A stretch of DNA of 64,000 nt from Nitrosopumilus cobalaminigenes (GTDB lineage: Archaea; Thermoproteota; Nitrososphaeria; Nitrososphaerales; Nitrosopumilaceae): assembly GCF_013407145.1 (NCBI RefSeq), contig NZ_CP026993.1:496001-560000 (forward strand), in the 5' to 3' direction. A program made the translations under genes and the position numbers. Below are positions 6,021 to 10,063 of the stretch, one piece after another. The stretch's first letter is position 1. Every line of letters starts with the position of its first letter. The notes beneath the pieces were generated by a model. The model ran no database searches, was not told the DNA's origin, and saw nothing but the letters and a program-made list of their open reading frames with translations.

Positions 6021-6033
6021 TTAACATTGTTAA
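6021..6033. promoter_or_regulatory. Palindromic operator B (TTAACATTGTTAA)
   Basis: A perfect palindrome apart from the central base, placed between divergent genes: 35 nt before the C2H2 gene (minus) and 51 nt before the winged-helix gene (plus). Confidence 0.8.
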
Positions 6034-6084: not shown

Positions 6085-6399
6085 GTGGTAGTTTCTAAAA
6101 AATATCGTGATAGAATTTACATAATTAAGGATATTATTTTGACCTTGTCTGAATATGGTCAACTCAACCAAACTTCATTGTTTAGTTTTTGTGGATTGAA
6201 CATTACAAAACATAAACAAATTCTAGAGAATTTGGAACAAAATGAAATGATTCAGAGAATAGAGTCTGTAGATGGTAAAAGAACCATCACCATCTTTAAA
6301 GTGACTCAAAAAGGAATGGATTTTTGTAATGAGATCATAGAACCGTTTGAAAAATTATTCCCAAGAAGTGGATTTTCTAATATCGAGAATCTTGGATAA
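6085..6399 (+). CDS. Winged-helix DNA-binding protein
   Basis: GTG start. The 104 residues form a compact winged helix: helices 'RIYIIKDIILTLSEYG', 'NQTSLFSFCGLN', recognition helix 'TKHKQILENLEQNEMI', then a wing with 'GKRTITIFKVTQKGMDF'. This matches the common archaeal small HTH type (HTH_45-like). It shares operator B with the divergent C2H2 gene and is a second candidate, besides the DtxR protein, for a regulator of the group. It converges with the membrane gene at 6400. Confidence 0.65.
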   Translation: MVVSKKYRDRIYIIKDIILTLSEYGQLNQTSLFSFCGLNITKHKQILENLEQNEMIQRIESVDGKRTITIFKVTQKGMDFCNEIIEPFEKLFPRSGFSNIENLG

Positions 6400-6889: not shown

Positions 6890-6902
6890 TTAACATTGTT
6901 AA
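6890..6902. promoter_or_regulatory. Palindromic operator C (TTAACATTGTTAA)
   Basis: Exact copy, 36 nt before the ATG at 6939. On the other side, 36 nt away, is a GTG (6853), with a TATA-like CTAAATAC between, so the site may serve both directions. Confidence 0.8.
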
Positions 6903-7045: not shown

Positions 7046-7264
7046 ATGACTTTTTGCTGTAAGGGAATATGCGAAACATTGCAGACAGATAGGGTTCCTA
7101 CTGGGGCGATATACCAATCAGGACATAAAAGATGTTCAATGTGTTCAGTTTTTGTAAAAACTAATGATTTAAGATGTCCTTGTTGTGGGGTTCGTCTTAG
7201 AACTAAATCAAGAAATAAACATTCTAGGAAAAATATTTCCTTAACATTGTTAAGTGAAAATTAA
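7046..7264 (+). CDS. Small Cys-rich zinc-ribbon protein
   Basis: 72 residues with seven cysteines: 'CCKGIC' at the start, then 'CSMC' and 'CPCCGVRLRTK', forming a probable zinc ribbon, and a basic tail. Proteins with this 'CCKGIC...CPCCGxRLRTK' pattern are common in thaumarchaea. It follows the acidic 34-aa gene by two bases and shares operator C. Its last codons are formed by operator D, so coding and regulatory sequence overlap there. Confidence 0.7.
   Translation: MTFCCKGICETLQTDRVPTGAIYQSGHKRCSMCSVFVKTNDLRCPCCGVRLRTKSRNKHSRKNISLTLLSEN
7241..7253. promoter_or_regulatory. Palindromic operator D (TTAACATTGTTAA), inside a coding end
   Basis: Exact copy within the 3' end of the zinc-ribbon gene, 36 nt before the ATG at 7290. 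A TATA-like TTAAATATC follows. Confidence 0.75.
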
Positions 7265-7289
7265 ATATCTTGAAATCTGATTAAACTTA

Positions 7290-7361
7290 ATGCAGAGGCA
7301 ACTCACTCCAGAGAGGAAATATAGAATTATGAATTATTATGATAGGTTCATTTACACCTAA
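7290..7361 (+). CDS. Putative 23-aa basic peptide
   Basis: ATG 36 nt downstream of operator D, TAA at 7359-7361. The product is short, basic and aromatic ('RKYRIMNYYDRFIYT'). The only support is the operator-to-start spacing shared with the neighbours. It could instead be the 5' part of a small RNA. Treat as a candidate. Confidence 0.35.
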   Translation: MQRQLTPERKYRIMNYYDRFIYT

Positions 7362-7412
7362 GACACGGTAATTTCCTACTGCTTCTGCATTATTTTTATT
7401 ATATTTCAAGAG

Positions 7413-7425
7413 TTAACATTGTTAA
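7413..7425. promoter_or_regulatory. Palindromic operator E (TTAACATTGTTAA)
   Basis: Exact copy, with the palindrome extended to GTTAACATTGTTAAC, 37 nt before the TTG of the DUF1059-like gene. A TATA-like GTATATTAC follows. Confidence 0.8.
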
Positions 7426-7462: not shown

Positions 7463-7624
7463 TTGGTAAAATTAAAGTGCAATGATTATGGTTTTGAATG
7501 TGATTTTGTAGTTGAAGGCGAAGTAGAGAAAGTACTTGACGACTTTGGAAAACATACTGATGAAGAACATGGAATAGACTATTCCAAAGAGTCTCTAATG
7601 CAGTTCATTTTGAGAAAATCATAA
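7463..7624 (+). CDS. DUF1059-like small protein (53 aa)
   Basis: TTG start, 37 nt after operator E. The pattern 'LKCNDYGFECDF...EGEVEKVLDDFGKHTDEEHGIDYS' with two Cys and two His matches the DUF1059 family of small bacterial and archaeal proteins. The Cys and His could bind a metal, but this is not established. It is followed after 22 bases by the insertase-like gene and probably forms an operon with it. Confidence 0.7.
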   Translation: MVKLKCNDYGFECDFVVEGEVEKVLDDFGKHTDEEHGIDYSKESLMQFILRKS

Positions 7625-7646: not shown

Positions 7647-8303
7647 ATGATTGATTATTTAGATTACAATTTCATCTTGTTTTTCCTTGATAATGTATTT
7701 CTTCAAGGGGATGATGGAGGGATTTTCTCATTTTTGAGTCAAAATAGGCAGGCATTAGGAAGTGATGACCCGATAGTAAAGGGGGTAATTCTAACTCTAT
7801 TTGGAGTAACAGGGTTTGGAATCCTTCTCAATATTTTCAATTCTTTGGTCAGAAAGAAGATGGTTGATCAAGACAAGCTTTCACGAATCATGAAAGAAAC
7901 TCGTGGTTGGCAAAAAGAAAGAATGGCTGCAATGCGAGCAAAGGATCAAGCAAAGATTGCAGAGTTGGGTAAAAAATCATCTTACATGAACAAAATGTCC
8001 ATGGAGATGATGCAGATGAATATGAGACCAATGATGATTACTTTTGTTCCCTTAATTTTGATATTTTATCTTGTGTTGCCCCAGTTATTTGCCTATACTG
8101 TTGCATTCTCTCCAATCTCCCTTAATGTAATTCCGGGAGATTTATTCCAACTCACATGTACTGCAGAACAAGCATTGGATGTGGAGCATATTTGTTTTGG
8201 TAAAGAAAATGCACTTTACTTATGGGCATGGTATTTTCTATCATCTATATCGTTTAGTGGAATAATCATGAAATTGACAAAGACTTCAATGAATTTGTCT
8301 TAG
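7647..8303 (+). CDS. EMC3/TMCO1-type (DUF106) membrane insertase-like protein
   Basis: 218 residues with three hydrophobic segments (about 45-65, 130-150, 190-210) and a cytosolic basic coiled region between the first two ('KETRGWQKERMAAMRAKDQAKIAELGKK', then Met-rich 'MNKMSMEMMQMNMRPMM'). This is the layout of archaeal Oxa1/YidC-superfamily proteins related to EMC3, GET1 and TMCO1, which insert membrane proteins. A strong Shine-Dalgarno (GAGGTGA, 7634-7640) precedes the ATG. Archaea normally carry a housekeeping copy near secY; this one rides on the mobile element under operator E, next to genes for micro-membrane proteins. Confidence 0.75.
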   Translation: MIDYLDYNFILFFLDNVFLQGDDGGIFSFLSQNRQALGSDDPIVKGVILTLFGVTGFGILLNIFNSLVRKKMVDQDKLSRIMKETRGWQKERMAAMRAKDQAKIAELGKKSSYMNKMSMEMMQMNMRPMMITFVPLILIFYLVLPQLFAYTVAFSPISLNVIPGDLFQLTCTAEQALDVEHICFGKENALYLWAWYFLSSISFSGIIMKLTKTSMNLS

Positions 8304-8359
8304 CGAGAACACTGTTAAACGAACAAGCAGAAATATTTTCAAAGATGAACTGTTCTCGC
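8303..8359 (+). terminator. Inverted repeat right after the insertase-like gene
   Basis: GCGAGAACA (8303-8311) pairs perfectly with TGTTCTCGC (8351-8359). The stem begins on the last base of the stop codon and has a 39-nt loop. It may end or stabilise the transcript; no T-run follows directly, so the role is uncertain. Confidence 0.35.
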
Positions 8360-8396: not shown

Positions 8397-8409
8397 TTAA
8401 CAATGTTAA
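8397..8409. promoter_or_regulatory. Palindromic operator F (TTAACAATGTTAA), before a noncoding region
   Basis: Exact copy. No reading frame starts at the usual distance. Instead the region 36 nt further on begins the candidate RNA 8446-8562. TATA-like TAAATATC lies at 8418-8425. Confidence 0.8.
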
Positions 8410-8445
8410 GTGAACACTAAATATCAAAATGTTCATTTTCTTCGT

Positions 8446-8562
8446 AATGTAGAAGTCAATATAGCCAACTAGCATAATTCCTAGAATGGATATGCCTCTT
8501 GCTAAGTCCTAGGATTCAATTCATCCTATTCCATCCAAACTGTCATTTTTGGCTTCTACATT
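8446..8562 (+). ncRNA. Candidate operator-controlled small RNA with paired ends
   Basis: The first ten bases AATGTAGAAG (8446-8455) are complementary to the last ten CTTCTACATT (8553-8562). An inner imperfect stem includes AATTCCTAG against CTAGGA...AATT. The start lies 36 nt after operator F, the same distance that separates other copies from start codons, with a TATA-like box in the right place. The only ATG near the start is followed at once by TAG, and neither strand holds a useful frame. The RNA itself is an inference; no expression is shown. Confidence 0.4.
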
Positions 8563-8566
8563 ATAC

Positions 8567-8579
8567 TTAACAATGTTAA
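8567..8579. promoter_or_regulatory. Palindromic operator G (TTAACAATGTTAA)
   Basis: Exact copy four bases after the candidate RNA and 42 nt before the ATG of the 28-aa membrane gene. TATA-like GTGTATATG follows at 8585-8593. Confidence 0.8.
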
Positions 8580-8621: not shown

Positions 8622-8708
8622 ATGAACAAACCTTCACGAAGAAAATTAATGGTTATTGGTACTGTCATTTGTAGTGGTGCACTATTAGGATTTGTTATTT
8701 TGGGGTAG
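8622..8708 (+). CDS. Micro-membrane protein (28 aa)
   Basis: ATG at 8622, TAG at 8706-8708. A basic head (KPSRRK) followed by one hydrophobic helix ('LMVIGTVICSGALLGFVIL') gives the usual inside-positive single-pass topology. It lies behind operator G with a TATA-like box between. This is the third micro-membrane gene in 3.2 kb. Function unknown. Confidence 0.5.
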   Translation: MNKPSRRKLMVIGTVICSGALLGFVILG

Positions 8709-9107: not shown

Positions 9108-9479
9108 TTATTCAATTATTTCAACTTGAAATTGTTCATTGATCCATATGCCAATGATTGGTACGGGTAATTCCCATGATTTTATTTTTGAGATTGCATT
9201 TTTGATTTGTCTTATTTGTTCATCTTTTGAAACTTGATTTCCTTCACAATCATGATGTGCAGATACTAGTATAATTTGAGAGTTACTTTCATTTATAGAA
9301 TGGAGTACTTTTGAGTGAATTTTGGAACATTCATTATTGTTTGTAAATAATTTTACTACCCCATGCTCTGTAATTGTATCTACATTATCTACATTATAAT
9401 TGGTTTTTAACCATTGGTTAATTGGAAGTTGAATACGTCCATCAAGACAATTAATTGCGGTTCCAAATTTTGAACTCAT
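9108..9479 (-). CDS. Beta-carbonic-anhydrase-like zinc protein
   Basis: 123 residues with the beta-class metal motif: C11-x-D13-x-R15 ('CLDGR') and H75-x2-C78 ('HHDC'), and a 'TAINCLDGRIQLPI' opening. Known short members of this group conserve the zinc ligands, but not all have been shown to hydrate CO2, and at 123 residues it is shorter than classic enzymes (about 200). The ATG at 9479 is 39 nt from operator H, and the gene is divergent from the DtxR regulator, so both probably answer to the same signal. Confidence 0.65.
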   Translation of the reverse strand: MSSKFGTAINCLDGRIQLPINQWLKTNYNVDNVDTITEHGVVKLFTNNNECSKIHSKVLHSINESNSQIILVSAHHDCEGNQVSKDEQIRQIKNAISKIKSWELPVPIIGIWINEQFQVEIIE

Positions 9480-9518
9480 TTTATATTAACGTGATAATGG
9501 CATTGTTATAAAGTTGAG

Positions 9519-9531
9519 TTAACATTGTTAA
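9519..9531. promoter_or_regulatory. Palindromic operator H (TTAACATTGTTAA)
   Basis: Exact copy between the divergent carbonic-anhydrase-like and DtxR genes. Its start is 21 bp from that of operator I, placing both on the same face of the helix. Confidence 0.8.
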
Positions 9532-9539
9532 TTATTACA

Positions 9540-9552
9540 TTAACATTGTTAG
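9540..9552. promoter_or_regulatory. Palindromic operator I (TTAACATTGTTAG)
   Basis: One mismatch at the last base. A TATA box (TGTATATATT) follows at 9557-9566, predicting transcription of the DtxR gene from about 9588 with a short leader carrying a Shine-Dalgarno. Confidence 0.75.
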
Positions 9553-9625
9553 TTATTGTATATATTATGAAAACATATTTTGGAACATTGGAGAAAACTC
9601 TAAAAAAATATTTAGGTGATATGTT

Positions 9626-10063
9626 ATGACTGATGAAACTCTATTTGTTGGAACTGCGGATGCAGAACATATAGAGATGTATCTAAAAGCAATCTGGCAT
9701 CTCAAAGAAAGAAGAGAAGGTGTTAAAATTAGCACCATAGCCAACATGCTGAATGTAAGACAACCCAGTGTTGTTCAAATGCTTAAAAAATTAAATGCTA
9801 AAAATTTAGTTTCTTACAACAAAGCAGGAGTAAAATTGACAGAAGAAGGTCAAGAAATTGGTGCAAGTATGATGAGAAACAGCAGACTGTTGGAAGTTCT
9901 CATGGACAGTGCACTCAAAGTAGAAATTGATGAAGAAATGGTTTGTGGAATTGAACATCACATGAAAAAACAATTTACAGATGCTCTGTGCACAATGCTA
10001 AATCATCCACGAAAATGTCCACATGACCATGAAATTCCTATGGGCGACTGTTGTCAACAATAA
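9626..10063 (+). CDS. DtxR/MntR-family metal-dependent regulator
   Basis: 145 residues. An N-terminal winged helix (about 14-70, 'ISTIANMLNVRQPSVVQMLKKL') binds DNA. The dimerisation and metal region has 'GIEHHM' (E110, H111, H112) and the family's closing 'CPHDHEIPMGDCC' (C131, H133). Metal binding (Fe, Mn or similar) is family knowledge. Shine-Dalgarno AGGTGA at 9614-9619 supports the ATG at 9626. Twin palindromes upstream suggest autoregulation, and the same palindrome before seven other units makes this the best candidate for their regulator. Confidence 0.8.
   Translation: MTDETLFVGTADAEHIEMYLKAIWHLKERREGVKISTIANMLNVRQPSVVQMLKKLNAKNLVSYNKAGVKLTEEGQEIGASMMRNSRLLEVLMDSALKVEIDEEMVCGIEHHMKKQFTDALCTMLNHPRKCPHDHEIPMGDCCQQ

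Follow-up and report, generated by a model that had tools for sequence, protein, structure and literature searches.

Among the described systems closest to this locus, sRNA162 of Methanosarcina mazei is an archaeal small RNA with both cis- and trans-encoded targets (PMC3510493), IsrR is an iron-repressed, iron-sparing small RNA of staphylococci (PMC9410917), and OmrA and OmrB are twin bacterial small RNAs with a known regulator and known targets (PMC12692685). The 64-kb stretch of Nitrosopumilus cobalaminigenes DNA analyzed here (the window) carries two RNA elements, RNA A and RNA B, that can be set beside each of them. Like sRNA162, they would be archaeal small RNAs that pair with mRNAs through unpaired domains, a mode of action only proposed for RNA A and RNA B; they differ in being operator-controlled, closed-ended and present as two sister copies, with no known sequence relation or target (PMC3510493). 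The likeness to IsrR is a functional analogy only, that of a member of a metal-type repressor regulon with a proposed action on mRNAs; IsrR is bacterial, whereas the candidate repressor here is a winged-helix protein with no known ligand, and only the accompanying genes hint at metals (PMC9410917). As with OmrA and OmrB, two apparently homologous small RNAs possibly differ in their targets, but the bacterial pair is unrelated to them in sequence, and regulator and targets are known for OmrA and OmrB alone (PMC12692685).

A known RNA family was rejected, since a tRNA was the sole match in the window to Rfam 15 at the gathering score and nothing overlapped RNA A or RNA B even at E values up to 5. 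Our survey of the open-access literature found no report of either RNA or of their regulon, and no regulatory small RNA for ammonia-oxidising archaea. Most likely, this RNA family works like the regulon-controlled small RNAs of other organisms while lying outside any described family.

Direct reading of the window places RNA A downstream of operator F (Table 1), with 36 nt (8410-8445) between the operator and the predicted RNA start, AATGTAGAAG (8446-8455). The exact reverse complement of this start, CTTCTACATT, occupies 8553-8562 and begins 107 nt after 8446, and a further 4 nt (8563-8566) lead to operator G. These distances are exactly those of the preliminary description, which had also reported that operator F has no open reading frame at the usual spacing; indeed, the ATG at 8447 runs straight into TAG. 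The 10-nt complementary ends given there are likewise exact, but the stem is longer, as pairing continues inward to form a 14-bp terminal stem, P1 (AAUGUAGAAGUCAA/UUGGCUUCUACAUU, with one U-G pair). The + strand of RNA A folds at -30.3 kcal/mol (z -4.6), a value matched by none of 200 shuffles, and the folding energy of RNA B is also low. Because no T run precedes operator G in the window, the 3′ end of RNA A is uncertain.

Table 1. Operators, promoters, RNA elements and candidate repressor in the 64-kb window (window positions)
Feature	Position	Strand	Remarks
Operator of winged-helix gene and divergent C2H2 mini-protein gene	6021-6033		
Winged-helix protein, candidate repressor	6085-6399	+	HTH_45, weakly Sso10a-like
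Operator between zinc-ribbon gene (7046-7264, +) and 111-aa membrane protein gene (-)	6890-6902		
Operator of RNA B	7241-7253		
TATA box of RNA B	7262-7269	+	TAAATATC; 8 nt after operator 7241
RNA B	7288-7392	+	P1 7288-7300/7380-7392; P2 7314-7320/7371-7377; TTTTT on the 3′ side
Operator of DUF1059 (7463-7624) and EMC3/TMCO1-like (7647-8303) genes	7413-7425		
Operator F	8397-8409		TTAACAATGTTAA
TATA box of RNA A	8418-8425	+	TAAATATC; 8 nt past operator F; conserved among copies of both RNAs
RNA A	8446-8562	+	Transcription start predicted at or adjoining 8446 from equidistant leaderless genes
P1 5′ arm of RNA A	8446-8459	+	AATGTAGAAGTCAA
P1 3′ arm of RNA A	8549-8562	+	TTGGCTTCTACATT
Operator G	8567-8579		Precedes 28-aa membrane peptide (8622-8708)
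Operator between carbonic-anhydrase-like gene (-) and DtxR-type gene (+)	9519-9531		

RNA B is 105 nt long, closed by UAAUGCAGAGGCA/UGCUUCUGCAUUA and spaced from its operator as RNA A is; the preliminary description included neither this RNA nor its inner helix, nor the putatively autoregulated winged-helix gene. Genus-wide DNA and promoter-pattern searches recovered RNA A 8 times and RNA B 17 times. A covariance model built from these 17 RNA B copies (R1) also picked out the window's RNA A, scoring 32.8 bits (E 2e-5) at 8443-8565 compared with 22.2 bits for the opposite strand. The two RNAs likely share a common ancestor, although this is not proven, because the likeness seen by R1 sits mainly in the terminal stem.

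A refined RNA B model from 23 copies (R2) matched strongly in 29 of the 250 Nitrosopumilaceae genomes, distributed over three genera; at the genus level, 15 of 95 genomes hold RNA B. All 16 strong matches outside R1 (6 identical in sequence to R2 copies through other records, 10 new to both models) carry the operator, intact or with a single mismatch, 31-33 nt upstream, together with a TAAATA box. Two genomes each hold three RNA B copies on separate contigs, every one with its operator (L179, L180 and L181 in G128; L070, L071 and L072 in G047), so by this count RNA B multiplies within genomes. One weak match (L100, G012:C1:41008-41100) has lost its 5′ half and has no operator, and its genome is without a close winged-helix orthologue; it looks like a decayed RNA B remnant after loss of the regulator. 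The family consists of RNAs of roughly 100-140 nt with their ends paired together, carried by ammonia-oxidising archaea and preceded by promoters that have the proposed repressor site in common.

Covariation analysis of the homologues, a check named in the preliminary description, revealed compensatory changes in the terminal stem. The third pair of the P1 core is U-A in RNA A against C-G in RNA B, and at the fourth pair G-C replaces A-U in one RNA A copy (L067); among RNA B copies P1 is almost invariant in sequence. Across the 8-bp core in 41 copies of RNA A and RNA B, we counted 316 Watson-Crick, 9 G-U, 0 A-C and 3 other cells, the wobbles representing perhaps five or six independent events. 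Since these wobbles are permitted on the + strand only, they argue for an RNA transcribed from that strand.

The inner helix P2 of RNA B provides most of the covariation signal. In the model-fitted alignment of 23 copies, which leans toward structure, 91% of cells pair and 6 pairs changed on both sides, giving 22 doubly changed cells versus 6.4 in shuffles, with none of 500 shuffles reaching 22. Direct pairing reveals P2 as well, with variants such as AGGAAAU/AUUUCCU, AGGAAAG/CUUUCCU, GGGAAU/AUUCCC and AGGAAAAAC/GUUUUUCCU. Shuffles on the first MAFFT alignment of RNA B yielded no covariation signal; MAFFT and RNAalifold missed the helix because of indels, and it emerged once the copies were realigned to the covariance model. 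The RNA A copies of the window's clade gave no consistent inner helix, and a clear one occurs only in L065, L067, L075 and L081. With operator, TATA box and their distance shared among homologues and with compensatory changes in P1, the original proposal of a stem-closed RNA of about 117 nt within the regulon is supported, and 8446-8562 very probably encodes a structured RNA of that regulon.

All seven exact copies of the operator in the 1.56-Mb genome fall within a single 3.5-kb cluster in the window, which marks the operator as highly specific. Many genes that bear it are leaderless and start 35-37 nt downstream, as far from the operator as the RNAs, and we place the predicted RNA 5′ end at the base of the stem for this reason. 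Because homologues keep the operator and TATA box at equal distance, both RNAs are assigned to the TTAACAWTGTTAA regulon. Its members include the winged-helix protein, C2H2 and Cys-rich mini-proteins, DUF1059 with the EMC3/TMCO1-like protein, and the 111-aa membrane protein, to which relatives add a membrane cupredoxin (PF13473, E 5.5e-8). Given the shared operator, the RNAs are probably induced jointly with this group of small proteins of metal-binding type, and the cupredoxin and zinc-type mini-proteins suggest metals as the inducing signal.

Two further features of the cluster were observed. Behind operator G, the 28-aa membrane peptide occupies the place of the relatives' 160-aa membrane-anchored cupredoxin under the same operator, and the copper domain has apparently been lost in this species. 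On the opposite strand, too, a TAAATA box stands 8 nt from operator F, and some 35 nt beyond it lies a 55-nt hairpin (GGCGAGAACA/UGUUCUCGCU; 8304-8359, -) conserved in L011 and L066, which could represent either a further, third small RNA or a terminator hairpin belonging to the EMC3-like gene.

Orthologue distribution points to the winged-helix protein, whose gene starts about 52 nt downstream of its operator, as the likely best candidate for the repressor. Orthologues with at least 77% identity occur in exactly the 15 genus genomes with strong RNA B matches. Family-wide, RNA B is present in 25 of 26 genomes with a close orthologue; of the remaining four genomes with RNA B, three carry an orthologue at 55-57% identity. 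This co-occurrence owes partly to linkage in one locus, and a close orthologue was not found in three operator-bearing genomes (G010, G011 and G051), two of which are fragmented or incomplete. The winged-helix protein is preferred because its orthologues track RNA B while the DtxR-type gene is near-universal; the DtxR-type protein (9626-10063) was rejected as regulator, its gene being present in 94 of 95 genus genomes and RNA B in 15. Within 9108-10063, the DtxR-type and carbonic-anhydrase-like genes have operators 9519/9540 in common. Since a second, 87% identical DtxR-type copy exists elsewhere (G000:C1:119565-119990), the window copy was apparently drawn into the regulon.

What sequence comparison itself shows is the unit of operator, promoter and RNA, the paired ends, P2 in RNA B, the strand and membership of the regulon; binding by the winged-helix protein, stability through the paired ends and mRNA pairing are inferences. 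These features are consistent with a model in which each RNA would have an archaeal promoter to itself, where 8 nt separate the palindromic operator from the TATA box and about 20 nt the TATA box from the start, with transcription starting at the base of the 13-14 bp stem that joins the RNA ends. The winged-helix repressor would bind the operators and thus control both RNAs jointly; derepression would yield the RNAs together with DUF1059 and the zinc-finger and Cys-rich mini-proteins, and in relatives the membrane cupredoxin. The closed ends may protect the RNA. Two unpaired segments of RNA B are conserved, namely CUCC between P1 and P2 (30 of 33 copies) and the apical UUCRUUU (25 of 33), and we propose that CUCC, which is complementary to the Shine-Dalgarno GGAG, and the apical UUUCRUUU..CUGCC could pair with target mRNAs. 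For the explanation as a whole, a repressor-controlled pair of closed-ended RNAs acting on mRNAs, we estimate a probability of about 55%. As a separate point, action on mRNAs in trans is a roughly balanced proposition, and a regulatory role in the same response as the regulon is plausible.

The most serious alternative is that the RNA is real but binds protein, as a sponge, scaffold or decoy, for example for a co-regulated zinc-finger mini-protein, instead of mRNAs. The near-invariance of P1, conserved in sequence besides pairing, suggests a protein-binding role as well, and several of the regulon's genes specify small C2H2 or Cys-rich proteins. The other conserved parts of the RNA, however, are unpaired segments, as expected for RNAs that pair, and an RNA-binding protein was not identified. 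We regard protein binding in place of mRNA pairing as improbable, at perhaps one chance in a handful.

Weaker is the view that the elements are cis-acting 5′ leaders (riboswitches or attenuators) reached by read-through into the next gene. The interval from RNA B to the following operator and gene is often 25-44 nt, that from RNA A in the window to operator G is 4 nt, and part of the copies have no T runs. Yet the downstream gene varies (DUF1059, C2H2 protein or cupredoxin) and is served by a separate operator and promoter, and RNA A in L066 and L011 is followed by T runs with no operator nearby, which makes a leader function unlikely.

Less likely still is that the element is a leaderless, structured mRNA encoding a very short peptide from a start codon hidden in the stem. 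The 5′ arm of RNA B does contain an AUG (GUG once) at the start position of leaderless regulon genes, opening frames of 14-50 codons with MQKQ-like beginnings. But the peptides diverge, CUCC falls in all three frames (20/11/2), and in seven of the eight RNA A copies the start codon, AUG or GUG, is followed at once by UAG. RNA B as a peptide gene was rejected because its frames are not conserved; on this comparison, conservation of the RNAs acts on nucleotides, without a conserved reading frame.

Taken alone, the stem of RNA A is only moderately surprising and not decisive: the window contains 44 exact 10-nt inverted repeats with loops of 60-200 nt versus 36 in Markov controls, and about 0.07 would be expected by chance within 5 nt either side of the RNA A spacing, all operators together. 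A single 10-nt inverted repeat at such spacing being just moderately rare, a chance repeat, DNA-binding element, terminator or mobile element with no RNA gene might be considered, but conservation of the stem in other genomes excludes a chance repeat, and the operator and TATA spacing fixed across three genera, the wobble bias to the + strand, the covarying inner helix and the conserved loop segments make this reading highly improbable.

For the reading we prefer, a repressor-controlled RNA pair acting on mRNAs, the broader consequence is tentative and less likely than not: the two closed-ended RNAs might alter the translation of many mRNAs by masking ribosome-binding sites, perhaps sparing copper or zinc proteins, an idea prompted by the cupredoxin and the many zinc- and Cys-type mini-proteins of the regulon, and might perhaps constitute the first such family described in ammonia-oxidising archaea. 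These archaea account for much of marine nitrification, and the conserved RNA family, with its defined promoter, operator and candidate repressor, occurs in Nitrosopumilus zosterae NM25 and Nitrosopumilus salaria BD31; because these carriers have been cultured, its expression, binding and targets are directly testable.
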